Shown one piece after another: positions 34,834 to 53,348 of a stretch of 64,000 bases of DNA. Source of the DNA: Methanoregula boonei 6A8 (GTDB lineage: Archaea; Halobacteriota; Methanomicrobia; Methanomicrobiales; Methanospirillaceae); assembly GCF_000017625.1 (NCBI RefSeq), contig NC_009712.1:806001-870000 (forward strand), read 5' to 3'. A model generated the notes under the pieces. It ran no database searches. It was not told the DNA's origin and saw only the letters and a list, made by a program, of their open reading frames with translations. Position numbers and translations under genes: made by a program. Numbering within the stretch: position 1 is the stretch's first letter; each line of letters opens with the position of its first letter.

Positions 34834-35355
34834 ATGGGTCTCAACAACATCGACACCAAACAGGTTATAGAATACAAAAAGGAGATCGAAAAGAAACCTG
34901 CGGATGCAAAGTTCACCGCAAAGATCGAAGGCAGCTGGCTCTTTGAAGACGGCGGGCCCCAGTTCCGATCGGTGGTCAAGGTTAAGGATGGCACCTACAC
35001 AATGGAGGCCTGTCACCCGAACTTTGCCGGTCCGGCAAGCCGCCCCGGTCCCATGGCCTTTGGTCTTTTCTGGTTTGCAGCCTGTTTTTCGAGCACCCTT
35101 GTTACTGAAGCCTCATTGCGAAAGATCCAGCTCGCGGAGGTAAAGACCCGTGTCGAGGCAGATCTCGATTACACCGCGCAGTTCGATCTCGGGAAACAGC
35201 CCCTTGTAAACGGGTTCCGGGTCTTCATGGATGTCAAGGGCGATGTTACCGAGGCCGAGCTTAAGGATCTTAAGGAGTACGCCCTTACGCACTGCATGGG
35301 CATGTTCACCATCCAGCATGCAATTTCCCTCAAGGCAGAAGTGAAAAAAGTCTAA
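34834..35355 (+). CDS. OsmC-like redox protein
   Basis: 173 residues with the OsmC fold pattern: ACHPNFAGPASRPGPMAFGLFWFAACFSSTLVTEASLRKIQLAEVKTRVEADLDY. The Cys in AACFSSTL is where OsmC/Ohr have the reactive peroxidatic cysteine; a further Cys (THCMGMFTI) lies in the C-terminal helix where the second conserved cysteine is expected. OsmC proteins reduce organic peroxides or carry thiol/persulfide groups. First gene of a five-gene unit with double-cubane-type reductase proteins, so a redox role tied to them is likely (inference). Confidence 0.8.
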   Translation: MGLNNIDTKQVIEYKKEIEKKPADAKFTAKIEGSWLFEDGGPQFRSVVKVKDGTYTMEACHPNFAGPASRPGPMAFGLFWFAACFSSTLVTEASLRKIQLAEVKTRVEADLDYTAQFDLGKQPLVNGFRVFMDVKGDVTEAELKDLKEYALTHCMGMFTIQHAISLKAEVKKV

Positions 35356-35380
35356 AAGAGTAAAAGGCAGGTCATACACC

Positions 35381-36661
35381 ATGGCAGATTATACAAAAAT
35401 GTGGAAATCACTGGGCATCGATATAGAGAACCACAATGCCCTTCTTGCAGGCCTGGGACAGGCATATACGGACATCTTCCTCTCCCAGAAGAACCGGCCC
35501 GAAGGGATGAAGTACTTCGATTTTGTGATGAGCGAGGTCCACGGGCTCCGGATCAAGGAGATTGTGGATGCAAAGGCCGAGGGCCGGAAAGTTATCGGAT
35601 CGTACTGCGTTTTTGTCCCGGAAGAACTCGTCCTTGCAGTCGACGGTGTTGCAATTGGCCTGTGCGCCGGTGCTGAACTGGGCTTTGAAGCGGCTGAGGC
35701 GCTGCTTCCCCGGAACACCTGCTCGCTTATCAAGTCCATGTTCGGGTTCAAGCTCGGGAAACTCTGCCCCTATGTGGAATCCTGCGATGTCATTGTGGGA
35801 GAGAATACCTGCGACGGCAAGAAAAAGGCGTACGAGATCTTCAGGCCGCTTGTTAAGGACCTCTACGTTATGGATCTCCCGCAGACAAAGAGCGAGACTG
35901 GCAGGATGGTACTCAAAGAGGAGTACCGTAAATTCATTGCAAAACTCGAAAAGGAGAGCGGGAAGAAGATCACCGTCCAGTCGCTCAGGAAAGGCATTGA
36001 GATTGTCAATGCAAAGCGCAAGGCAATGATCCGGCTTGCCGCAGTCCGTGCCGCCGATCCGGCCCCGATCTCGGGACTTGATGCCCTCCTTATCAACCAG
36101 GTCTTCTTCCACGATGACCCGGTCCGGTTTACCGACTCGGTCAACAAGCTCTGCGACGAGCTGGAACAGCGGGTAAAAGATCACAAGGGTGTCTTCCCCA
36201 AGGGAACAACCCGTGTTATTGTCTCGGGCTGCCCGATGGCTGTCCCGAACTGGAAGCTCCCGATGATCATTGAGACGAGTAATGCCGTTATTGTGGGCGA
36301 AGAGTCCTGCGTGGGAGAACGCGGTACCCGGTGGCTGACTGATATCAAGGGCAACACCGTAGAAGAACTGCTCGATGCCATTACCGACCGGTATTTCAAT
36401 GTAGACTGTGCAGTATTCACACCCAATCCCTCACGGGTCAGCCATGTAAAAGATATGGTAAAGAAACTCCATGCTGACGGTGTCATCCACTACAGCCTCC
36501 AGTTCTGCCAGCCCTACATCATTGAGAGCGGCCCGGTAGAGAAGGAACTGGAAAAATCACACATCCCGACCCTGCGCCTGGAGACCGATTACAGCCAGGA
36601 AGATGCCGGCCAGCTCAAAACAAGGATTGAGGCTTTCAACGAACGCCTGAAGAAGAAATGA
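35381..36661 (+). CDS. 2-hydroxyacyl-CoA-dehydratase-D / double-cubane-cluster-like protein, first copy
   Basis: HgdB-family protein (426 residues). Cluster-binding cysteines are likely in LLPRNTCSLIKSMFGF, KLCPYVESCD and GENTCDGKKKAYEI (residues ~105-150) and LQFCQPYIIESGPVEKE (~370). The C-terminal ETDYSQEDAGQLKTRIEAF is the family end. Relatives include hydroxyacyl-CoA dehydratase subunits and the double-cubane cluster protein, an ATP-driven small-molecule reductase. No CoA-transferase or acyl-CoA gene is nearby, so the DCCP-like alternative is favoured (inference). Overlaps the activator gene by ATGA. Confidence 0.82.
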   Translation: MADYTKMWKSLGIDIENHNALLAGLGQAYTDIFLSQKNRPEGMKYFDFVMSEVHGLRIKEIVDAKAEGRKVIGSYCVFVPEELVLAVDGVAIGLCAGAELGFEAAEALLPRNTCSLIKSMFGFKLGKLCPYVESCDVIVGENTCDGKKKAYEIFRPLVKDLYVMDLPQTKSETGRMVLKEEYRKFIAKLEKESGKKITVQSLRKGIEIVNAKRKAMIRLAAVRAADPAPISGLDALLINQVFFHDDPVRFTDSVNKLCDELEQRVKDHKGVFPKGTTRVIVSGCPMAVPNWKLPMIIETSNAVIVGEESCVGERGTRWLTDIKGNTVEELLDAITDRYFNVDCAVFTPNPSRVSHVKDMVKKLHADGVIHYSLQFCQPYIIESGPVEKELEKSHIPTLRLETDYSQEDAGQLKTRIEAFNERLKKK

Positions 36662-37407
36662 GATACGCGGGAATTGATATCGGATCAAGGACGGTAAAAC
36701 TTGCCGTAATCGAAGACGGCAGGCTGGTCCTTTCCCGCAAGTCGGCAACCTCGCACAACCCTCTGGGGATCGCACACGAACTCATGGAGGGAGTGGACTA
36801 TGACCGGCTCACTGCCACCGGATACGGCCGTCACCTGATCAAAGGGCATCTCGACTGCCCGGTGGTAAGCGAGATCACGGCGTTTGTCCGGGGTTCCCGC
36901 TTTTTTTCAAACGATTGCGAATCGATCCTTGATATCGGTGGCCAGGACACTAAGGCCATCTCCCTTGACAAAGACGGTAACCTGTGCAAGTTCGAGATGA
37001 ACGACCGGTGTGCGGCCGGGACCGGCCGGTTCCTTGAGGTCATGGCGACCGTGCTTGGGTTTACCCTGGAAGAGTTCTCTCTTGCCGCCCTTTCCGCAAA
37101 AAGGGCAGAGAAGATCAACAGCATGTGCACGGTCTTTGCCGAGTCAGAGGTAGTATCCCTTGTTACCCAGGGTGCGGACCGAAACGAGGTTGCCCTTGGG
37201 ATCCACAAGGCAATTATCAGCCGTGCTGCGGGGCTCTTGAAACGTGTTGCTCCCTCAGGAAAGATCTTTTTTGCCGGGGGCGTTGCATTAAACGGCTGTG
37301 CACGTTCACTCCTCGAACAGGAGACGGATAGACCGGTCTTTGTCCCACCCGATCCCCAGATTGTCGGGGCGGTTGGTGCGGCACTGGTCGCATCGGAAAA
37401 CAGTTAA
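36658..37407 (+). CDS. Activator ATPase of HgdC/BadF/BcrA family
   Basis: A 249-residue ASKHA ATPase that injects low-potential electrons into HgdB-type partners at the cost of ATP. Signatures: GIDIGSRTVKLAVIEDG (phosphate 1), CESILDIGGQDTKAISLDKDG (phosphate 2), the two cluster cysteines in MNDRCAAGTGRFLEVMA and NSMCTVFAESEVVSLV, and FFAGGVALNGCARSLLEQE. A homodimer would hold one [4Fe-4S] cluster through four cysteines. It lies between the two HgdB-like genes and could serve both. Confidence 0.93.
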   Translation: MRYAGIDIGSRTVKLAVIEDGRLVLSRKSATSHNPLGIAHELMEGVDYDRLTATGYGRHLIKGHLDCPVVSEITAFVRGSRFFSNDCESILDIGGQDTKAISLDKDGNLCKFEMNDRCAAGTGRFLEVMATVLGFTLEEFSLAALSAKRAEKINSMCTVFAESEVVSLVTQGADRNEVALGIHKAIISRAAGLLKRVAPSGKIFFAGGVALNGCARSLLEQETDRPVFVPPDPQIVGAVGAALVASENS

Positions 37408-37432
37408 TTCCCTTAAAGGATTGTGTAGTACG

Positions 37433-37981
37433 ATGGAGACAGACCTTCATCCGTGCAGGGATCGTGTGGGAATATCCCCCGGGAAGCAACCCGATCCTGC
37501 AGGAATCCGGAAGATCGCAGAGGAGTACTACCGCTCCGGGCAGTTCTACTGCTCCGAGGCAATCGTAAAGACCTTCAATGAAGAGCTCGGGCTTGGCTAC
37601 CCCGAAGAAATCATCCGTCTCGCTTCCGGTTTTCCTCTTGGGATCGGCGGCGCCGGCTGTTCCTGTGGCGCCGTGACCGGCGGGGTCATGGTAATTGGGA
37701 TGGTCTTTGGCCGGACCAATCCCCGGGACCCCTGTGTTGAACGCTGTCTTTTGTTCTCCCGGGAGCTCCACGACCGGTTTGTGAACCGGCATGGGTGTGC
37801 CTGCTGCCGTTCGCTTATCCGGGGCATGATCCTGAAGTCTCCCGAACACATGCAGCAGTGTGTTGCCCTGACCGGTGAAGTTGCCGAGGAAACTGCGAGG
37901 ATCATTATACGTGAAACGGGCATCCCCGCCGAAACAGTGAGGTACGGACACGATCACGATAGAGGAAATGGGGCATTATGA
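37433..37981 (+). CDS. C_GCAxxG_C_C family redox protein
   Basis: About 182 residues with the family's cysteine signature: FYCSEAIVKTF, then GGAGCSCGAVTGGVMVIGMVFGR and later DPCVERCLLFSREL and HGCACCRSLIRG. Such proteins are often encoded beside redox enzymes and may bind metal or clusters; a precise function is not known. The frame is open upstream to 37298, but ATG 37433 (METDLHPCRD) lies just after the activator stop, so I start there. The stop overlaps the next ATG (ATGA). Confidence 0.8.
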   Translation: METDLHPCRDRVGISPGKQPDPAGIRKIAEEYYRSGQFYCSEAIVKTFNEELGLGYPEEIIRLASGFPLGIGGAGCSCGAVTGGVMVIGMVFGRTNPRDPCVERCLLFSRELHDRFVNRHGCACCRSLIRGMILKSPEHMQQCVALTGEVAEETARIIIRETGIPAETVRYGHDHDRGNGAL

Positions 37982-39129
37982 GAGCAGAAAAGATGAATTA
38001 CTTTGATTCGGTGATCCCGAATGCATCGGCGGCGATAAAAAGCGTACGCGAACAGGGAAAGAAGTTCGTGGGGTTCTACTGTATTTTTGCCCCGCAGGAA
38101 CTCATCGTTGCCGCAGATGCGGTACCGGTGACTCTTTGTTCCACCAAAGAAGAGCCCATTGCCGACGGCGAGAAATATCTCCCGCGGAATTTCTGCCCGC
38201 TCCTTAAATCCTCCTACGGGTTTGCCATCACCGGGAAATGTGCGTTTTTTAACAACGCGGAATTTATCATCGGCGAGACCACCTGCGATGGCAAGAAAAA
38301 GATGTTTGAGATGATGGGCGCCTTCAAACCGCTGGTTGTGCTCGAACTCCCGCAGAGTGCAAAAGGAGAGATCCAGCAACAGTACTGGCGCTCGGAAGTG
38401 GCCCGGTGCAAAGAGGAGATCGAAAAGCGCCTCCATGTCACCATCACAGACGAAAAGATGAGGGCTGCAATCAGCGACATGAACGAGCAGCGGGGCCTGA
38501 TGCGGGAGCTCGCCCTCCTAAACACAGCGGTTCCCGCGCCTCTTGCCGCCACAGACATGCTCAAAGTGATGTGGGCCCGCAACTTCACCTTTGACCGCCC
38601 CACCTTCAATAAGCAATTAAAAAGTCTCATTGCCGAACTTAAGGGCATGGCCGCAAAAGGCGAAGGTCCTGCGCCAAAGACCGCAAAGCGGATCATCGTT
38701 ACCGGTGTTCCCACGGGTGTCGGCTCCGAGAAGGTCATCCGGATTCTTGAGGAATCGGGCGCTGCAGTTGTGTATATCGAGAACTGTGCCGGCATGAAAC
38801 AGTACCTGGACGATGTTTCCACACGCGGGTCGCCCCTCGAAGCAATTGCCGACAAGTACCTCGCCACTCCCTGCTCCTGCATGAGCCCGAACACCGGCCG
38901 GCTCGAACTTCTGGAAAAGCTCGTACCTGAGTACCATGCAGATGGCGTTGTGGATATCACCTGGACCGGCTGCCACACCTACAACGTCGAGTCCCGGATT
39001 CTCGGGGACTATCTTTCCCTTCACGGGAATGTCCCGTTCATCCAGATCGAGACCGATTATTCGCAGGGCGATATCGGGCAGATCAGGACCCGGATCGAGG
39101 CATTCCTCGAAATGATTGCAAAGAAATAA
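37978..39129 (+). CDS. 2-hydroxyacyl-CoA-dehydratase-D / double-cubane-cluster-like protein, second copy
   Basis: A 383-residue paralogue of the 35381 protein, sharing the order FYCIFAPQELIVAADAVPVTLC, YLPRNFCPLLKSSYGF, GETTCDGKKKMFEM, then AGMKQYLDD and the end QIETDYSQGDIGQIRTRIEAF. Cysteines differ: ITGKCAFFNNAE here against KLCPYVESCD in the first copy, and WTGCHTYNVES against LQFCQPYIIES. The two could form a heterodimer as HgdA/HgdB do, or two separate homodimers with different substrates. Last gene of the operon; T-run GCTCTTTTTTTTGG follows. Confidence 0.83.
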   Translation: MRAEKMNYFDSVIPNASAAIKSVREQGKKFVGFYCIFAPQELIVAADAVPVTLCSTKEEPIADGEKYLPRNFCPLLKSSYGFAITGKCAFFNNAEFIIGETTCDGKKKMFEMMGAFKPLVVLELPQSAKGEIQQQYWRSEVARCKEEIEKRLHVTITDEKMRAAISDMNEQRGLMRELALLNTAVPAPLAATDMLKVMWARNFTFDRPTFNKQLKSLIAELKGMAAKGEGPAPKTAKRIIVTGVPTGVGSEKVIRILEESGAAVVYIENCAGMKQYLDDVSTRGSPLEAIADKYLATPCSCMSPNTGRLELLEKLVPEYHADGVVDITWTGCHTYNVESRILGDYLSLHGNVPFIQIETDYSQGDIGQIRTRIEAFLEMIAKK

Positions 39130-39287: not shown

Positions 39288-40533
39288 TCAGAAAAACAGG
39301 ACCCTCTGGTGGTTTGCCACGATACCCGTGGGAGGGAAGAAGAGGAGCGTCCCCAGTTCAGAAGGTCCCACCGGGATCACGCCGGTCAACTTGGGGTTCT
39401 TACTCATATTCCGCGCCTGGAGCGAGGGGGTATAGGAAAAGAACTGCAGGTTTTCACTCCCCGAGGCTGCATCAACTGCCTCCTGCAGGTTGAAACAGTC
39501 CTTTTTGTTATTGCAGGAATGAACGCCTGACAGGGCATAGACGCCATCCTCTATGAAAATGACACGCGTCTGGATCTCCTTTTTGGTACATGCCAGGGCA
39601 AAGTTGAGTGCGCCGGTGGCATATTCCGATCCATACGGATGCCGGGTAACAAGGATATTGACCGGGGGGACTCTCCATTTCTCATCGAAACTCAGTCCCC
39701 GGCTTGATCGTCTCCTTTTTCATGGAGACTGAGGCACTGTTTTCGCCAAGGATGATATGGTTGCTGCGGAACTGGGCAGCGATCTCAGGCAAGGTGCGGA
39801 TCCTGACCGGCCTGATCATACAGGCAGGCACAAGGCCCTCTTTCTCCCCTTCATGGGTGCAGTATCCCCGTGCAGCCGCACAGCGGGCGCTTGCCATAAT
39901 CTGTCCGTGAAGGCCCCGTTTTCCGGCCCGCTCTTCCAGATCATCGAGGCCTTCCCCGACGTTTTCCGCATCCAGGGGGATTTGGCCCTGGTGCCCGACA
40001 TGGATCCCGTCAAGATAGCAGTAGAGATCCCATGACGCATGGGTTTCGAGTGCCGCGCCCAGCCCCTGCATCAGTTTTTCTGAAGACTGATACATGTACG
40101 GGGAGGTCATGTGGAAAAAGCCGATGGTGCTTGGTATGGGCTGATCGTGCTGGCGGGCATCTTTCATCACATCTTTCCAGAACGAGGTTCTCCCGTTGAG
40201 CGCCAGGCTGTTGTGGGTGATCACCAGATCCGGGTTCTTCATCTTCAGGCGTTCCACGGTAATGCCACGGAGGGCGAGTTCCTCCTGATCGCAGACAATT
40301 TTTATCGAGGGCAGGGAAAAGAGACTCTCCCAGAGGCCGGCAGTTTCCGGGTTCTGGAGACTGTACAGGGCATCCCCGGTTAAATAAAAGGTGAAGGCAG
40401 CTTCCCGGTAATGAGTGGTATGGCGGAAGCTCTGCGGATTGAGTTTTAAGAAATAAAATTTCAGCAGTTCATCGATCCAGCCGATCCGCTCCTGACTGAG
40501 GCTGTCCCTTAAGAGAAAAAAATGTGCGGTCAT
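39288..40533 (-). pseudogene. Three-domain DsrE-like protein with a frameshift
   Basis: Paralogue of the intact 52116-53348 protein. From 40533 to 39682 it reads 283 residues with two DsrE-like domains (MTAHFFLLRD..., LTGDALYSLQ, KIVCDQEELALRGI with Cys81 at the same position as in the paralogue; then GFFHMTSPYMYQSSEKLMQ...ARCAAARGYC). It ends TIKPGTEFR-stop. Shifting +1 at GAGTTTCGATGAG reopens the frame as FDEKWRVPPVNILVTRHPYG and continues the third domain (RVIFIEDGVYALSG, FFSYTPSLQARN) to VLFF-stop at 39288, matching the paralogue to its last residues. The second part has no ATG, GTG or TTG of its own at its start. Mutation, sequencing error or programmed +1 shift are all possible. Confidence 0.8.
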
Positions 40534-42382: not shown

Positions 42383-42955
42383 TTACGCGTTCGAATTGCT
42401 GTCCATCTGCTCGCGTACTTCATCGATATGGAGAACCATATCAAACGCCGGGCCGGTCAGGCAGTATCCCTGCCGGTCAAGGGCATAGACCGGGAACTTT
42501 ACCAGTTCCGGGGGAACCGGCTGCGAGGTCAGTTTCTTGAAGTTGAGAAGATCCCGGATGTTAAGCCCTATCTTGTCGCAGATCTCCCTGAGATCAACAA
42601 TCCATCGCCGCAGATCCCGGACATCCGCTCCGTCCCACTTGAAGATCTGGTAAATTTTCATGTAGGCATCCCGTTCAAGGATAATATGGGTAGAGGTCTT
42701 GTCGGATTTAAGATAAAAATCAAGGAACGTGCGCACATCTTTTATCACCTGTGCATTCTCGTACGCAACGGCCCGGCATTCCTTGACGGATTCACTGAGT
42801 TCCTCGGCCTCTTTTGTCTCACCCAGCTTTGCGATCTCATGGGACAGCTCTTTTAAGTTCTCCTCAACTTCCCTGAGTTCGTTTATCGTATCCTCGAACT
42901 TCTGGTTCAGCTCCACCCCAAAAAATGCCTCCATGTATTCGGAATGCTTCACCAT
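42383..42955 (-). CDS. Conserved-looking helical protein of unknown function
   Basis: About 190 residues; residues ~15-75 form a predicted coiled coil (NQKFEDTINELREVEENLKEL, then SESVKECRAVAYENAQVIKD). The second half has WIVDLREICDKIGLNIRDLLNFK and the end LDRQGYCLTGPAFDMVLHIDE, which reads like a small globular domain. No family recognised. The frame is open to 43030; a TATA-like AACAAATACTTA at ~42983-42994 on this strand predicts transcription start near the ATG at 42955 (MVKHSEYMEA), so I use it. Divergent from the sulfite-reductase-like gene. Confidence 0.65.
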   Translation of the reverse strand: MVKHSEYMEAFFGVELNQKFEDTINELREVEENLKELSHEIAKLGETKEAEELSESVKECRAVAYENAQVIKDVRTFLDFYLKSDKTSTHIILERDAYMKIYQIFKWDGADVRDLRRWIVDLREICDKIGLNIRDLLNFKKLTSQPVPPELVKFPVYALDRQGYCLTGPAFDMVLHIDEVREQMDSNSNA

Positions 42956-43055
42956 GGTACATACTTCGCTTCGGGGTGTCATAAGTATTTGTTCCTTACC
43001 ACTCGTGGTACATCCGTAACCTCTATCCATTGCAGCATCGAAGCACTAGTCAGCT

Positions 43056-46125: not shown

Positions 46126-46926
46126 TTAGTTTTTCGTGTAGAGATGACCGTAGACGGTCTCTCCCTTCTTCTTGGGGTGGCGCTCGCCAAGATCACCGAT
46201 GTAATCGGTAAACTTTGCCTTGGTGCCGTCAACCTCGAGCTCGACTACGCCGACTGGCTTGTAGCCGGGCATCATGACGTTCATCGTGCCAAAGACGTAG
46301 ATCTCGCCCTTGACCAGCTGGCCACCGACACGGCGGTTTGCATTGCCCTTGAGGATGATCTTGCCGCCCTCCATGTGGGTGCCAAGGTGGATATCCACGT
46401 CGCCCTCCACAATCAGCGTGCCGCCGGTCATCCAGCTGGCAACGTCGGAGCCTGCATTTCCTTTCACCCGCAGGACGCCGCCGCTCATGCCTCTCCAGTC
46501 CCCACGGTAGGCTGCACCGAGGTAGTTTCCGGCATTGCCGTTAATGGTGAATTCGCCGCCCTTCATTGCAAGCCCGCAGAATGAGTGGACGTCGCCGTTG
46601 ACGGTGAGTTTCCCGCCCTTCATCCAGCTGCCGGTGTACATATCGCAGGACGAGTTGACGAGCATCTCACCGGCGGTCATCTTGGCGCCGATGTATTTCA
46701 TCTTCGTGCAGTCGCCGTTGATAACAATCTTTGTTTCCGCCGCTGTTGCCCCGGTGCTGCCTGAAACAGTGAAATACTCTCCAACGGTAGACATCTCTTT
46801 ACCCTGGTATACCGGCATATTTGCGATCTGTTCGGCAGTCTTACCGGCAAAGGCGTCCGGGTTAAAGTTTTCACATTCGAGATAGAGCTCCGGAGCTTTC
46901 TTTACGGTCAGTGTAATTGTTTCCAT
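46126..46926 (-). CDS. fwdC: Formylmethanofuran dehydrogenase subunit C
   Basis: 266 residues. The C-terminal two thirds have the GxGxG parallel-beta repeats of the glutamate-synthase-alpha-C-like fold: LVNSSCDMYTGSWMKGGKLTVNGDV, AMKGGEFTINGNAGNYLG, SGGVLRVKGNAGSDVASWM, TLIVEGDVDIHLGTHM. FwdC is the structural beta-helix subunit of the first enzyme of methanogenesis from CO2. Last gene of fwdGDBAC, 11 nt after fwdA. Its stop lies just left of A-rich sequence that reads as a T-run on this strand. Confidence 0.95.
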   Translation of the reverse strand: METITLTVKKAPELYLECENFNPDAFAGKTAEQIANMPVYQGKEMSTVGEYFTVSGSTGATAAETKIVINGDCTKMKYIGAKMTAGEMLVNSSCDMYTGSWMKGGKLTVNGDVHSFCGLAMKGGEFTINGNAGNYLGAAYRGDWRGMSGGVLRVKGNAGSDVASWMTGGTLIVEGDVDIHLGTHMEGGKIILKGNANRRVGGQLVKGEIYVFGTMNVMMPGYKPVGVVELEVDGTKAKFTDYIGDLGERHPKKKGETVYGHLYTKN

Positions 46927-46937
46927 TCCTTGTCACC

Positions 46938-48644
46938 TCACTGAACTGCATCCACAGCGATGATGTGCTGGTGCGGTGCGTAGCTTTCGGGGACGGGATA
47001 GTTGCCCTCATTGAGGCTGTAATACTTGAGGAACTTCTCCCGTATGTCATGAATGACCTGCTTGTTCTCCGGGACCTTGACATCCACCCAGAACGTGTGC
47101 TTGTGGCCCATATCCACGACCTTGCCCTCCTCAACACAAATCTTGCCGTCCTTGAAGAAGTAGGCAACGTTTGCGAATGCCTTCTCGATCTCAGGGCCGG
47201 TTGAGGGGAACTTGTCCGGGTCGATGTTGTAGATCGCGATATCGGCGTTCATGCCGGGTGCAAGACCGCCGTAGTCCTTCCTGAGGCCAAGCGCCATTGC
47301 GGGACCGGCACGGGTCATCTGGGCAAGCTCGTAGAGCGAAAGCTCGCGGTCGATCTCTGCGATATAGGTCGCATCAATAACCTTGTCTGCAGTCTTGAAC
47401 GAGTGCAGGAACTCGTCACGGACTTTCTTGCTCATGAGCCAGGAGTACACACGCGGGTAGCGGGTGAACGGGCCGGCGTTCGGGTGGTCGGTGGTGATAT
47501 AGCAGCGCATCGGGTCCTTTGAAAAGAGTGCAAGCTCAAGGCCGATGGCCCACTGGATACAGTTGACCGTGACGTTCGGGCTGTAGATGTAAGGCACTAC
47601 GCCGGCGCCGGTCTCGAGTTCGACATCCACGTTGAACCACTTGAGGTGGTTTAAGGCATGGAGGTGGTGCTCGAACGGACCATCGGCGGTCATGGTTGTA
47701 GTCTCGTCCATGGTGACGTTACCCGTATCCATGGTGAGGTTCTTGTTCTTGTTGAAGTAGTCCATGACCTCCTTTGACTTTGAACAGATGTTGGCGAAAC
47801 TGTCTCCGCCATAGGAGTGGAACTGGAGATGGGTCGAGTGCAGGACCTGCTCGCGGCCAAAGTTATTCTTTGGCTTCATGCCCTCGGCAAGCTTGAGCGT
47901 GTCGAGCGTTACCGTGTAGTTGCCGGGGTTGCCGAGGTCATTCTGGTGGACATGCATCGAGTGCGGGAGACCCAGGTACTCGTTTGCCTTAATCAGGCCG
48001 GTCACGATCTCTGCCGGGGTGATATCGAAGTACGGCACCGGGTCGTGGATGGTCAGGCAGTTAAGCCCCCATGCCCATGCTTCCGTGCCGCCGGGGTTGA
48101 CGCACTTGATACCGTAACCTTTGGTCTGCCGGAGGATCCAGGCAATGTACGCAGCCGCGTTCTCGATCTCCTGGTTTTTCAGGTATTCAAGGATGAACCA
48201 GTTGTTCCCGAAGACCGGGAGTGCTGCCTCATCGATGATGGGGGTGTCATGGATCTCTTCGTGGACATGGCGGGCGTACATCGGGGGCATTGCTGCCTCC
48301 ATGACAAAGCCAAATCCCATCCGTGCGTATTCGTACCCGGTCTTAAAGACCGTCGGGATCGATTTGCCTCCCTCAATGCGGGTGATACCCGGTTTCTTGT
48401 GGGAGTCGAAATGTTTGTCTTCCGGGCGGTACCAGCGGCCGGCATTGACTTTGGGGCCGGCAACATGGGAGTGGATATCGAGCGCCCCTGCCATGACGGT
48501 CTTGCCCTTGGCATCGATGGTCTTTGCCGAGGATCCGACTTTTTCCACGATCTTGCCGTCTTTTACGGCAATATCCTTTTTATCGCCTTTGATCCCCTGG
48601 ACCGGGTCAAAGACATGACCGTTCTTGATAATATACTCAGACAT
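46938..48644 (-). CDS. fwdA: Formylmethanofuran dehydrogenase subunit A
   Basis: A 568-residue amidohydrolase that transfers the formyl group onto methanofuran at a binuclear zinc site. It opens MSEYIIKNGHVFDPVQGIKG; metal ligands are in GALDIHSHVAGPKVNAGRW (HxH), GLPHSMHVHQNDLGNPGNY and HSTHLQFHSYGGD, with YITTDHPNAGPFTRYP carrying the late Asp/His. Its ATG directly follows the fwdB stop. Family length. Confidence 0.96.
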   Translation of the reverse strand: MSEYIIKNGHVFDPVQGIKGDKKDIAVKDGKIVEKVGSSAKTIDAKGKTVMAGALDIHSHVAGPKVNAGRWYRPEDKHFDSHKKPGITRIEGGKSIPTVFKTGYEYARMGFGFVMEAAMPPMYARHVHEEIHDTPIIDEAALPVFGNNWFILEYLKNQEIENAAAYIAWILRQTKGYGIKCVNPGGTEAWAWGLNCLTIHDPVPYFDITPAEIVTGLIKANEYLGLPHSMHVHQNDLGNPGNYTVTLDTLKLAEGMKPKNNFGREQVLHSTHLQFHSYGGDSFANICSKSKEVMDYFNKNKNLTMDTGNVTMDETTTMTADGPFEHHLHALNHLKWFNVDVELETGAGVVPYIYSPNVTVNCIQWAIGLELALFSKDPMRCYITTDHPNAGPFTRYPRVYSWLMSKKVRDEFLHSFKTADKVIDATYIAEIDRELSLYELAQMTRAGPAMALGLRKDYGGLAPGMNADIAIYNIDPDKFPSTGPEIEKAFANVAYFFKDGKICVEEGKVVDMGHKHTFWVDVKVPENKQVIHDIREKFLKYYSLNEGNYPVPESYAPHQHIIAVDAVQ

Positions 48645-50030
48645 TTACGCCCCTCCCTTGGCCATGGCTTTGTCCGCATGCTGCTCGATCTTGGCTCCTT
48701 TGCTCGCCGCACTTTCGGCGGCAATGAGCTCATCGACGCGCTGGTTGATCCTGGTCAGGAGCTCAACGTCTGTCAGCATACCCTCTGGCGGATCAACCAC
48801 TTTACGGGTTTCGATCGGGACATTGTCCATACGATAGGCACAACCCTCTACTTCGACGCCGACCATGGCGACCGGGATGTGGAGATCGGAGATCTCAGTC
48901 GTACAGTTAATGTGCGGATCCACGGTGACGGTGGGTTTCTTGGAACTGCTGATCATTGCATCCACCGGGAAGTGAGCGCCCGGATCGGTTGCGATATAGA
49001 AACAGGCCTCTACCTCGTTCCGGTTGAGAAGATCGACTGATGTCGTCTCGCCGGTCTGGTGGCGTGCCTGGTCCCTGCGTGAGAGATCAACTGCATACGG
49101 GAACCCGTACTGCCAGCCGAGAACCTGCCCGGAGCCGGTAACGTTCCAGTGGCCCCGCATTGCCATGATCGCGGCTTTCGTGAAGTCGTTTAAGTCACGG
49201 GTCAGGTTGATGGCGATATCGATGTTGTGGTTCCTTCCCATGGAGTGGGTGAGTCCCATGCCAAAGAAGATGATAATGAACCTGCCCTGCTTTAAGTCCC
49301 CGATTATTTCCTGGATCTTCTCTTTTGGGACCCCGCCTACCGTATCCGGTATCGTTTCGCCGCGGGCCGCAGCCCTGAATGCGTTCAAGAGCTCGTAATC
49401 GAATCCCTGCGCAACCTGGATGAACTCATCTGCACATTTTGCCGTGTCGGTATACCGGCAGTCAACGCAGTAGATCTTCCGGCCCTTGTGGCCCTTGACG
49501 GTGAAAAACCCGCGGGGGAAGATTGAGTACCTGGACATATGCCGGGGGTGGGCGTGTGCCGGGTTGCAGCCCCAGAAAATAACGCGGTCCGCACGGTTCT
49601 TGACCTCACCGAGGGTACAGCTTGGGACACCTACATCTTCGATGGCGATAAGGGACGATCCGTGGCAGACCGTTGCACAGTTGTCGACAATCGCTCCGGT
49701 TTTTTCTGCGATCTCATGACCAACGCTCATGGCCTGGCAGCTGGTGGATGCCCAGCCGTACATCAGGGTCTTTCGGGACTTCACGAGCATCTTTGCAGTC
49801 CAGTCGATAGCTTCATCGTACGAAACCTCCTTAAAGGTCCCGTCGGCCTGTCGCATCCGCGGGCGCTTGACCCGGCCCGGGAGGCGCTGGTGGTTGAACT
49901 TTTCAGCGCCGATAGCGCATGCATTCTTGACACCAAGGATTGTCTTGTTGTCATCGGATACCGTGATGACGATATCATCACACAGGGTTCCGCAGAACGG
50001 ACAGATAACATCAGTAACTTCTTTTGGCAT
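48645..50030 (-). CDS. fwdB: Formylmethanofuran dehydrogenase subunit B
   Basis: The pterin/metal and [4Fe-4S] subunit that reduces CO2 to formate. An N-terminal cluster motif is DVICPFCGTLCDDIVI with NACAIGAEKF; the metal-ligand region is IVDNCATVCHGSSLIAIEDVG, where the ligand is Cys and not selenocysteine (no in-frame TGA). Later VIFWGCNPAHAHPRHMSRYS is typical. 461 residues. Cys with Fwd-type neighbours suits the tungsten isoform, but metal choice cannot be proven here. Confidence 0.95.
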   Translation of the reverse strand: MPKEVTDVICPFCGTLCDDIVITVSDDNKTILGVKNACAIGAEKFNHQRLPGRVKRPRMRQADGTFKEVSYDEAIDWTAKMLVKSRKTLMYGWASTSCQAMSVGHEIAEKTGAIVDNCATVCHGSSLIAIEDVGVPSCTLGEVKNRADRVIFWGCNPAHAHPRHMSRYSIFPRGFFTVKGHKGRKIYCVDCRYTDTAKCADEFIQVAQGFDYELLNAFRAAARGETIPDTVGGVPKEKIQEIIGDLKQGRFIIIFFGMGLTHSMGRNHNIDIAINLTRDLNDFTKAAIMAMRGHWNVTGSGQVLGWQYGFPYAVDLSRRDQARHQTGETTSVDLLNRNEVEACFYIATDPGAHFPVDAMISSSKKPTVTVDPHINCTTEISDLHIPVAMVGVEVEGCAYRMDNVPIETRKVVDPPEGMLTDVELLTRINQRVDELIAAESAASKGAKIEQHADKAMAKGGA

Positions 50031-50037
50031 CGCTCAA

Positions 50038-50448
50038 TCACTTCCTGATAAGTCCGCAGGCATCCTGCAGTACTTCGACTGCTCCCATGATCCGCTCGTT
50101 TGCTGCAATCTCTATATCCGCCGGGAATCCCTTGAAGCAGGGTTCTCCCGTGGAGAAGGTATATCCCGGGACAATCCGGTTTGCCCAGGGGCCCATGGGT
50201 ATGTGGGCAAGGCCCGGCACAAGGTCCTCACGGGTCTCGACAGCCTTTAAAATAACGCTCCCGACCGAGCTTGTGACCTTGACATTCGTGTTCCTCCATG
50301 CACCCAGTCTCTTGAAATCCTCGGGGTGCATCTGGATGATCGTGCAGGCATCAAAGTACTTCTGGGAAGTCTTGCCTGCTTCCATGCCTACGCCCTGCTG
50401 GATCGTGCGGCATGTAATGATGTTGACCGTAATTTTCTTATTCGCCAT
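50038..50448 (-). CDS. fwdD: Formylmethanofuran dehydrogenase subunit D
   Basis: 136-residue molybdopterin-dinucleotide-binding-like beta-barrel subunit (KITVNIITCRTIQQGVGMEAGKTSQKYFDACTIIQMHPEDFKRLGA; later VPGLAHIPMGPWANRIVPG). Completes the pterin pocket of FwdB. Begins 26 nt after fwdG and ends 7 nt before fwdB. Confidence 0.95.
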   Translation of the reverse strand: MANKKITVNIITCRTIQQGVGMEAGKTSQKYFDACTIIQMHPEDFKRLGAWRNTNVKVTSSVGSVILKAVETREDLVPGLAHIPMGPWANRIVPGYTFSTGEPCFKGFPADIEIAANERIMGAVEVLQDACGLIRK

Positions 50449-50474
50449 TATTATCGCCTCAATCTGTAGCCGGC

Positions 50475-50741
50475 TTAACTTTTTACCGGTGCCGGGGTCC
50501 TTAGCTCAGTCCCGCAGAGCTGGATGACATCGTAGGGGCAGGCCTCCACACAGACACCACACCCTGCACACAGTTCTTTCTTGACATCGAGATGAACTGA
50601 AACGCCGTCCTGTACCTGGTAGATCTTCTCATTGGTAACAGGATCCAGCGTCCACAGTTCCAATGCATCCACCGGACATGCAGTAACACAGTTCCCGCAT
50701 CCGGTGCACCGGCTCATGTTGACATGTACTGAAAACGCCAT
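50475..50741 (-). CDS. fwdG: Ferredoxin subunit of formylmethanofuran dehydrogenase (FwdG-like)
   Basis: 88 residues with two [4Fe-4S] motifs, CTGCGNCVTACPVDAL and CAGCGVCVEACPYDVI, separated by ~30 residues with an extra strand. It passes electrons to the FwdB active site. First gene of the operon as seen. No fwdF or fwdE lies beside it, so the polyferredoxin subunit must be elsewhere or replaced. Confidence 0.9.
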   Translation of the reverse strand: MAFSVHVNMSRCTGCGNCVTACPVDALELWTLDPVTNEKIYQVQDGVSVHLDVKKELCAGCGVCVEACPYDVIQLCGTELRTPAPVKS

Positions 50742-52115: not shown

Positions 52116-53348
52116 CTAGAAGAAGAGGATCCTCTCGTGGCCGGTACCGTTCTCCGCCCGCCGGGGAAACAGGAGCGCGCTTAATTCCTCAAAGCCAATT
52201 TCCCGCACTGCGGCAAGTGTTCCGTTCTTTAAAACTCCCCGCATGTGAAGGGAAGGTGACAGGGTAAAGAACTGCAGGCCGGTATTTCCGGACAGATGCC
52301 GGATCAGCTCCGGCAGGGTAACGGCCTCATCTCCACCCGGTGCCCGGTGCTCCCCGGTGAGTGCATAGACTCCGTCTTCGAGAAAAATGACGCGGCTCCG
52401 GATCCCCTGGTGTGCACAGGCAACGGCAAACGCGATCCCTCCAAAGGCATATTCTGTGCTGTACGGGCTGTGGGTAACAAGGATAGTTACCGGAGCTGTG
52501 GCGGGGAAATTCTTCTCCGGTTGTTGCGCGGTGCCGATCCGGCTGTAACCGGCATTCTCTGAAAACAGGACCGGAATGTTTCCTGTTTTGTGGATCATCA
52601 TTCCCGCATCCCGGATGTGGGCAGGTTTTATGAGAAAAGATGAACCTACTGTCCCAAGGCCATCGTCCCATGACTGGTATCCCCGGGCGGCGGCCGAGTA
52701 CCGGTGAATCATAAGTGAACAGGGCAGCTGGTTTTCCGCTGCGAGTTTTGCCAGCTGTTCCAGGGACTCCCCGATATTCTCCCGGTCACCGGTAATCTGG
52801 CCGGTATGGCAGGAATGCGTGCCATCAAGGTAGCCGTACAGCCCGATACCGTATCCAAGAGTGAGTGCTGCCGAAAGACACTGGATTGCATCTCCCGCAG
52901 AAGGGAACATGTACGGCGATGAAAGCAGGAGCCATCCGATTTCGCGTGGGGAATTAGGGTGCCGGTCCGGCATCGCTGAGAGGATCTCACTCCAGAATGA
53001 AGTACTCCCCCCGGTTTTCCCGGCAGGAAGAGTAATTACCTGATCCGGAAACCGTTCCACCAGCGGATCAAGAGAAATACCCCGGTGGGCCAGTGCATCC
53101 CCATTGCATACGATCCTGACTCCGGGCATCGACAGCAGAGATGCCCAGATGTGCCGGGACTCGGCCTCATTGAGGCTGTAGAGTGCATCCCCGGTAAGAA
53201 AGATCGAGATACCCGGCACTCCCTGTTCGGAGGCAACCGGGGAGTCGGCGCTTTTTCTCGGTTGGGTATAATACTTAAGAGCCTGATCGATCCACGATAA
53301 CCGCTCCTGCGTAAGCACCGTACTGAAAAGAAAAACATTTGCGGTCAT
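52116..53348 (-). CDS. Three-domain DsrE/TusBCD-like fusion protein
   Basis: 410 residues made of three DsrE-like domains. Domain 1 (~1-110): ISIFLTGDALYSL, then VRIVCNGDALAHRGI with Cys81 at the usual DsrE position. Domain 2 (~135-230): IGWLLLSSPYMFPSAGDAIQC...GLYGYLDGTHSC and QLPCSLMIHRYSAAARGY with Cys210, as in TusD. Domain 3 (~286-405): VTILVTHSPYSTEYAFGGIAFAVACAHQG, RVIFLEDGVYALTG, FFTLSPSLHMRGV, with no Cys at the equivalent place. Separate DsrE, DsrF, DsrH or TusB, C, D normally form a complex; here all three are in one chain. A sulfur-relay or sensing role is inferred. Paralogue at 39288-40533. Confidence 0.83.
   Translation of the reverse strand: MTANVFLFSTVLTQERLSWIDQALKYYTQPRKSADSPVASEQGVPGISIFLTGDALYSLNEAESRHIWASLLSMPGVRIVCNGDALAHRGISLDPLVERFPDQVITLPAGKTGGSTSFWSEILSAMPDRHPNSPREIGWLLLSSPYMFPSAGDAIQCLSAALTLGYGIGLYGYLDGTHSCHTGQITGDRENIGESLEQLAKLAAENQLPCSLMIHRYSAAARGYQSWDDGLGTVGSSFLIKPAHIRDAGMMIHKTGNIPVLFSENAGYSRIGTAQQPEKNFPATAPVTILVTHSPYSTEYAFGGIAFAVACAHQGIRSRVIFLEDGVYALTGEHRAPGGDEAVTLPELIRHLSGNTGLQFFTLSPSLHMRGVLKNGTLAAVREIGFEELSALLFPRRAENGTGHERILFF

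Follow-up and report, generated by a model that had tools for sequence, protein, structure and literature searches.

A five-gene operon at positions 34834-39129 of the window, which denotes the whole 64,000-nucleotide (nt) stretch analysed here (Methanoregula boonei 6A8, NC_009712.1, 806,001-870,000 of the forward strand; positions refer to this window unless stated otherwise), encodes two putative double-cubane-cluster proteins (DCCPs), an activator and two accessory proteins, and is real, intact and of a known enzyme kind, in an arrangement and a setting that are new. We read it, tentatively and with slightly less than even confidence, as an ATP-driven double-cubane reductase in which two paralogues run on one activase and which, together with its redox accessories, acts on sulfur species. 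The five genes are intact, tightly packed and on the same strand in the order OsmC, DCCP1, activator, C_GCAxxG_C_C, DCCP2, with intergenic spacings of +25, -4, +25 and -4 nt, and all five products scored above the curated family cut-offs in profile searches. The preliminary description had placed them in one operon with ATGA overlaps between DCCP1 and the activator and between the C_GCAxxG_C_C gene and DCCP2; coordinates and families were confirmed, and both overlaps are exact. A promoter and terminator scan gave chance-level results, its model being bacterial and unsuited to archaea. The genes are the following:

34834..35355, plus strand: OsmC-family protein, 173 amino acids (aa), first gene of the operon (PF02566)
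35381..36661, plus strand: DCCP1, of the long, characterised type, 426 aa (NF040772, PDB match and tree)
36658..37407, plus strand: activator (DCCP reductase/activase), 249 aa (TIGR00241, PDB 7yyl_E and clade)
37433..37981, plus strand: C_GCAxxG_C_C protein, 182 aa, with an ATG start (TIGR01909)
37978..39129, plus strand: DCCP2, of the short, uncharacterised type, 383 aa (NF040772, AlphaFold2 model and alignment)

Both HgdB-like proteins passed the NF040772 double_cubane profile (cut-off 350 bits), DCCP1 with 455.6 and DCCP2 with 485 bits, and both matched HGD-D PF06050 (389 and 385 bits, cut-off 28.4), of which they are the only two representatives in the whole genome, a single contig of 2,542,943 bases. 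DCCP1 matched PDB 6eno/7yyl with 463 bits by sequence and is 49.6% identical to the Carboxydothermus DCCP; DCCP2 is 36% identical to the latter and 80-84% identical to the copies of its congeners. When HadC and MbdN served as outgroup, the tree set all 51 DCCPs apart with support of 100/99, DCCP1 falling among the Carboxydothermus-type proteins and DCCP2 in a separate clade of 34 rows (100/100) with no studied member within the set. The AlphaFold2 model of DCCP2 (predicted local distance difference test, pLDDT, 92.6) had 6eno as its best PDB match, with a template-modelling (TM) score of 0.95, ahead of both BzdN (0.89) and HadC (0.85-0.88). Profiles, tree and, for DCCP2, predicted fold thus assign both HgdB-like proteins to the DCCPs, not to the dehydratases, and support the earlier proposal of an ATP-dependent double-cubane reductase in a methanogen. 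As controls, the DCCP homologues of E. coli and M. jannaschii passed the same NF040772 cut-off; we take these to be YjiM/YjiL and MJ0007/MJ0004, respectively.

Eight cysteines are shared by the two paralogues, at C76, 95, 114, 129, 144, 310, 343 and 376 in DCCP1 and at C35, 54, 73, 88, 103, 270, 299 and 332 in DCCP2. In the alignments they were invariant across 80 DCCP2-like and 15 methanogen proteins, and in the 11 DCCP1-like rows, of which one is incomplete, their conservation was 91-100%. These positions would suffice for two cubanes ligated by three cysteines each, the six ligands being candidates among the eight. The preliminary description had noted that the two copies differ in cysteine positions, which holds for the peripheral cysteines only (C135, C258 and C284 in DCCP1; C144 and C301 in DCCP2) and not for the eight invariant ones; since these are the same in both, the idea that the cysteines betray different cluster types was rejected. 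Some of the residues that tell the two types apart stand beside conserved cysteines (A or M after CDGKKK; CA-F vs CSCM), a modest hint that their specificities may differ.

The predicted fold (TM 0.95 for the DCCP2 model), the eight shared cysteines and the adjacent ASKHA-type activase liken the operon to the DCCP and DCCP reductase of Carboxydothermus hydrogenoformans (PDB 6eno, 7yyl, 7yzm and 7yzq). Unlike that system, the Methanoregula operon has two paralogues on one activase, a DCCP2 belonging to a separate, uncharacterised clade, and additional OsmC and C_GCAxxG_C_C genes. Within the same superfamily, BzdN (8s02), a benzoyl-coenzyme A (CoA) reductase subunit, has an [8Fe-9S] cluster like DCCP but takes a CoA substrate and works within a heterodimer, and TudS, a sulfur-transferring enzyme (PMC11971306), differs from DCCP in being a single domain with one small iron-sulfur cluster. 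The likeness of nitrogenase to the ATP-driven DCCP reductase is one of mechanism only.

The activator, whose start overlaps the DCCP1 stop by 4 nt, scored 226.5 bits against TIGR00241 (cut-off 125.4), and its best PDB match was 7yyl_E, the activase of the Carboxydothermus DCCP complex. Its translation carries the cysteine motifs CAAGTGRF and MCTVFAESE, as expected of a dedicated ATP-dependent activase with two predicted cysteine ligands per subunit. Only one other TIGR00241 match was found genome-wide, a 422-aa frame at genome coordinate 2517295, which is taken, from its protein length, as methanogenesis marker 15. With that reading a single DCCP-type activase is left in the genome, and DCCP1 and DCCP2 therefore most likely share it.

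Such a set of two DCCPs and one activator is not confined to this genome. The bacterial loci fetched for DCCP2 number 79; in nine of them (L053, L060, L074, L075, L080, L086, L087, L090 and L111; here and below, L numbers are fetched loci and G numbers genomes of relatives), from Bacillota and Desulfobacterota, one gene of each DCCP type shares a strand with a single activator gene, and the gene order varies between loci; in L066 and L106 the two types lie on opposite strands. L060 and L080 have the window's order without the C_GCAxxG_C_C gene, DCCP1-activator-DCCP2. The DCCP1 frame of L060 is a 139-aa C-terminal piece only; that of L106 is split. Because the window DCCP2 belongs to an archaeal lineage, this arrangement arose more than once, and the recurrent loci are the best evidence for cooperation of the paralogues. 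A division of labour between the copies, proposed earlier from their cysteine positions, is therefore plausible, but on the ground of these bacterial pairings instead. Two further DCCP groups, each with an activator directly after the DCCP gene, were seen in other Methanomicrobia (L023-L026 with L028; L027 with L029-L032) and are separate from the Methanoregula DCCP2.

The operon is a composite, produced by two separate insertions beside a sulfur-handling island. The preliminary description had suggested a survey of the five-gene set in other archaea; a conserved archaeal unit was ruled out, the set having been found in none of the 38 other Methanoregula genomes. The units that are conserved are smaller, namely OsmC with C_GCAxxG_C_C, DCCP2 with a different activator and, here, DCCP1 with its activator. 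In six congeners the cassette reads OsmC - C_GCAxxG_C_C - DCCP2, and past DCCP2 comes the other activator, which is read from the opposite strand, is about 40% identical to that of the window and lies at a distance of some kilobases in L018. In congeners lacking a DCCP, the OsmC - C_GCAxxG_C_C pair abuts p117 with a gap of -36 to 85 nt, and where DCCP2 and its activator are present the same gap is ~2.0 kb, which indicates that the two came in as one insertion. DCCP2 is native to Methanoregulaceae, and its sister group in the tree is from Bacillota (Heliorestis and Sporomusa). DCCP1 and the present activator stand between OsmC and C_GCAxxG_C_C in this genome alone among 39 Methanoregula; a search of these genomes gave no DCCP1-type match in the others, the best being DCCP2 copies at 39-40%. 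DCCP1 groups with Desulfotignum, a Desulfobacteraceae bin and an uncultured bacterium (99/99), and the activator falls in a Desulfobacterota-dominated clade of 12 rows (Shimodaira-Hasegawa-like approximate likelihood ratio test 100); from this common Desulfobacterota-type placement, the pair was probably acquired together. Repeats around the inserted pair were at chance level apart from the expected DCCP1/DCCP2 similarity. This genome no longer has the older activator, p117, p82, TusA or YedE, as searched genome-wide for YedE and activases and within the window for p117, p82 and TusA; in the 39.0-42.4 kb region, matches to remnants of the five were at chance level only.

The other two operon proteins are members of this island. 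The OsmC-family protein (PF02566 50.5 bits, cut-off 27.5) has redox cysteines C84 and C154 that are invariant in seven orthologues. A search of 393 genomes of the phylum at E 1e-15 recovered this OsmC type in 16, 12 of them from the same order with at least 44% identity; matches at 42% or more came from that order only. The C_GCAxxG_C_C protein (family TIGR01909/PF09719) scored 109.2 bits against TIGR01909 (cut-off 47.4) and carries conserved GCxCGA and CCR cysteines. It has no sequence relative in the PDB, including by profile search, and viral contigs gave no match either; its AlphaFold2 model, built on a thin alignment, is all-helical (pLDDT 71, predicted TM score 0.75), and the top Foldseek match was 1h21, a split-Soret cytochrome c with a novel iron centre, at a probability of 1.00 and TMq 0.59 but E 0.11. 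NCBIfam independently named a split-Soret cytochrome at E 0.008, below cut-off. These matches are a lead that the protein may bind iron. In Methanoregula sp. SKADARSKE-2 (L018 6251-6743, = L035) the C_GCAxxG_C_C gene lies in two frames, with OsmC and DCCP2 intact.

OsmC and C_GCAxxG_C_C occur in the island also without any DCCP, together with a split YedE-type transporter (PF04143), TusA (PF01206), a DsrE-domain protein (PF02635), a sulfite-reductase-like protein, p190 and the small proteins p82 and p117, and the island mostly adjoins formylmethanofuran dehydrogenase (fwd) genes. In family f3 it also holds a SufS-like cysteine desulfurase and an FdhD-like sulfurtransferase; scores below cut-off, 76.7 of 269 bits for the latter and 118-128 of 324 bits for the sulfite-reductase-like protein, denote resemblance only. 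Among the island loci (L121-L125 and L131-L140), L123 adds MoeA and an FrhB-like gene, possibly of a formate dehydrogenase. In the other Methanoregulaceae loci of the DCCP2 clade that were read (L019-L022), DCCP2 adjoins fwd or island genes. The archaeal island looks like a sulfur supply line for tungsten/molybdenum (W/Mo) enzymes. Its remnants in the window are the genes for the sulfite-reductase-like protein and p190, together with fwd and a second DsrE-like gene; they are listed here with the damaged first DsrE-like gene:

39291..40533, minus strand: DsrE/DsrF-like sulfur-relay gene with a frameshift near 39.68 kb (tblastn)
42383..43030, minus strand: p190, a conserved, uncharacterised island protein that shares 79% identity with the copy in L013
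43056..43931, plus strand: sulfite-reductase-like protein with a ferredoxin domain (TIGR02912 127.9 bits, below the cut-off of 324; island homologues)
46126..50741, minus strand: formylmethanofuran dehydrogenase genes C, A, B, D and ferredoxin (TIGR03122, TIGR03121 and TIGR03129 above cut-off; FwdD below)
52116..53348, minus strand: second, intact DsrE-like copy, 410 aa, 40% identical over 414 aa

The intact 414-aa DsrE-like homologue of congeners, which carries PF02635, matched the window by tblastn with residues 1-290 and 282-414 in different frames. p190 is present in nearly all island loci.

In bacteria, too, DCCP2 is found beside genes of chalcogen handling. YedF was present in 12 of the 79 bacterial DCCP2 loci, a cysteine desulfurase/Sec-lyase-like gene in seven and SelD in five, the neighbour clusters being identified by profile from one member each. 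The selenium-linked bacterial DCCP clusters (YedF, SelD, Sec lyase, DUF3343 and type I MGCs) resemble the present case in having DCCP2 and an activase near such genes; in contrast to them, Methanoregula has no SelD, and its partners are the split YedE, TusA, OsmC, C_GCAxxG_C_C, the sulfite-reductase-like protein and fwd. SelD was found above cut-off in none of the 39 Methanoregula genomes, and two control genomes passed the same search, which favours sulfur over selenium. Handling of chalcogens would be the common theme, and in Methanoregula the element is likely to be sulfur. SaoX-type ABC transporter genes were also seen near bacterial DCCP2, in an 11-locus cluster of which one member scored 516.8 bits (L053, L066, L077, L085 and others), and corrinoid methyltransferase-like genes in 12 loci.

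In the mechanism that we propose, the activase, with one [4Fe-4S] cluster at its dimer interface, would hydrolyse ATP and pass low-potential electrons singly to the [8Fe-9S] clusters of the DCCPs, and DCCP1 and DCCP2 would reduce oxidised or catenated sulfur, for instance thiosulfate, a persulfide, a polysulfide or a compound at the sulfite level. As an electron or sulfur carrier, the C_GCAxxG_C_C protein might bind iron or persulfide, the two cysteines of OsmC could hold sulfur in a transferable thiol or persulfide state, and the product would go to a TusA/DsrE-type relay, most plausibly for the W/Mo cofactor sulfur of the adjacent formylmethanofuran dehydrogenase. We infer the direction of flow, the roles of OsmC and C_GCAxxG_C_C, the recipient enzyme and whether the paralogues form a heterodimer or two homodimers; sulfur species as the substrate class are our best guess from gene context. 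The core of the preliminary description, an ATP-dependent reductase, stands; context speaks for a sulfur-handling island and against a generic reductase of small substrates in which OsmC would clear peroxide.

Several points weigh against this sulfur reading. The substrate assignment is guilt by association, and a part of the bacterial DCCP2 loci has corrinoid methyltransferases or ABC transporters as neighbours instead. The DCCP substrates known in vitro are acetylene, azide and hydrazine (PMC11971306, PMC7306483). The island is eroded here, with the nearby DsrE-like gene frameshifted, YedE absent genome-wide and no TusA, p82 or p117 homologue within the window, so that the operon could have persisted beyond the sulfur role it first had, and the adjacency of fwd might be accidental to the island.

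Of the other explanations, the one that survives best, though unlikely, is that the DCCPs reduce small non-sulfur molecules, among which we would add cyanide, for detoxification or nitrogen scavenging, the island being a mere landing site. The in vitro activities just named, which are those of the Carboxydothermus enzyme (PMC11971306, PMC7306483), and the acquisition of DCCP1 and its activator from a bacterial-type lineage speak for it, but DCCP2 is found repeatedly in sulfur- or selenium-handling neighbourhoods in both archaea and bacteria. It is quite unlikely that the electrons go to a protein instead, with DCCP2 and the activase activating the sulfite-reductase-like protein or the W cofactor of formylmethanofuran dehydrogenase. 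Several Methanoregulaceae have DCCP2 next to fwd or to the gene of the sulfite-reductase-like protein, and related activases do activate metalloenzymes, as in methyl-coenzyme M reductase; yet formylmethanofuran dehydrogenase is essential in such methanogens, and a DCCP match was found in only 27 of 199 genomes of the class. Improbable as well, and to be ranked next, is a decaying or redundant relic in which DCCP1 and its activator came to lie beside DCCP2 by chance, with no cooperation. Erosion of the island and occurrence of the five-gene set in one genome would fit such a relic; against it, the five genes are intact and tightly packed, the combination of both DCCP types with one activator is shared by no fewer than nine bacterial loci, in varying gene order, and the loss of the older activator has left one for both DCCPs. 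A part in selenium metabolism, as proposed for bacterial DCCPs from published gene context (PMC10418091, PMC5322559) and in keeping with the bacterial neighbours YedF, SelD and SaoX, is very improbable in Methanoregula given the SelD result and the lack of a selenium-type YedE in this genome. A classical 2-hydroxyacyl-CoA dehydratase or benzoyl-CoA reductase, with which both proteins share the Pfam family PF06050, can be dismissed as next to inconceivable, since the best scores were 128.7 (HadC), 74.8 (BzdN) and 75.5 (BcrC) against cut-offs of 700, 453.8 and 421 bits, both proteins fall outside those lineages in the tree and carry cysteines absent from HadC, and the CoA-transferase families PF02515 and PF01144, the acyl-CoA enzymes searched for, gave no match genome-wide. 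The earlier remark that no CoA-transferase is present therefore extends from the operon to the genome for these two families, and the combination it had set against its own reading, both proteins inside true dehydratases with an acyl-CoA pathway, was clearly not what was found.

Returning to sulfur, DCCP chemistry is nitrogenase-like and ATP-driven, and the biological function of DCCPs has been stated as unknown (PMC11971306); their conserved place in a sulfur-handling island of SelD-less methanogens, together with the recurrent two-DCCP/one-activase operons, points to a testable substrate class, sulfur, and a testable architecture, DCCP1 with DCCP2. A wider proposal, which we consider rather doubtful, is that DCCPs are the ATP-driven reductases of chalcogen supply, serving selenium in selenium users and, in SelD-less methanogens, sulfane or oxidised sulfur that would pass via OsmC, C_GCAxxG_C_C, TusA and DsrE to W/Mo enzymes; DCCP1 and DCCP2 would then form a machine of two parts run by one activase, either as a heterodimer or in two steps.

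Finally, some relatives carry paired HGD-D-like proteins of ~395 and 470-510 aa that score below the DCCP cut-off (G034:C1:1164784-1178271; G109:C1:1492366-1494872 and 3664390-3666923; G101:C8:50802-53335), and these are possible heterodimeric dehydratase- or benzoyl-CoA-reductase-like enzymes in methanogens.

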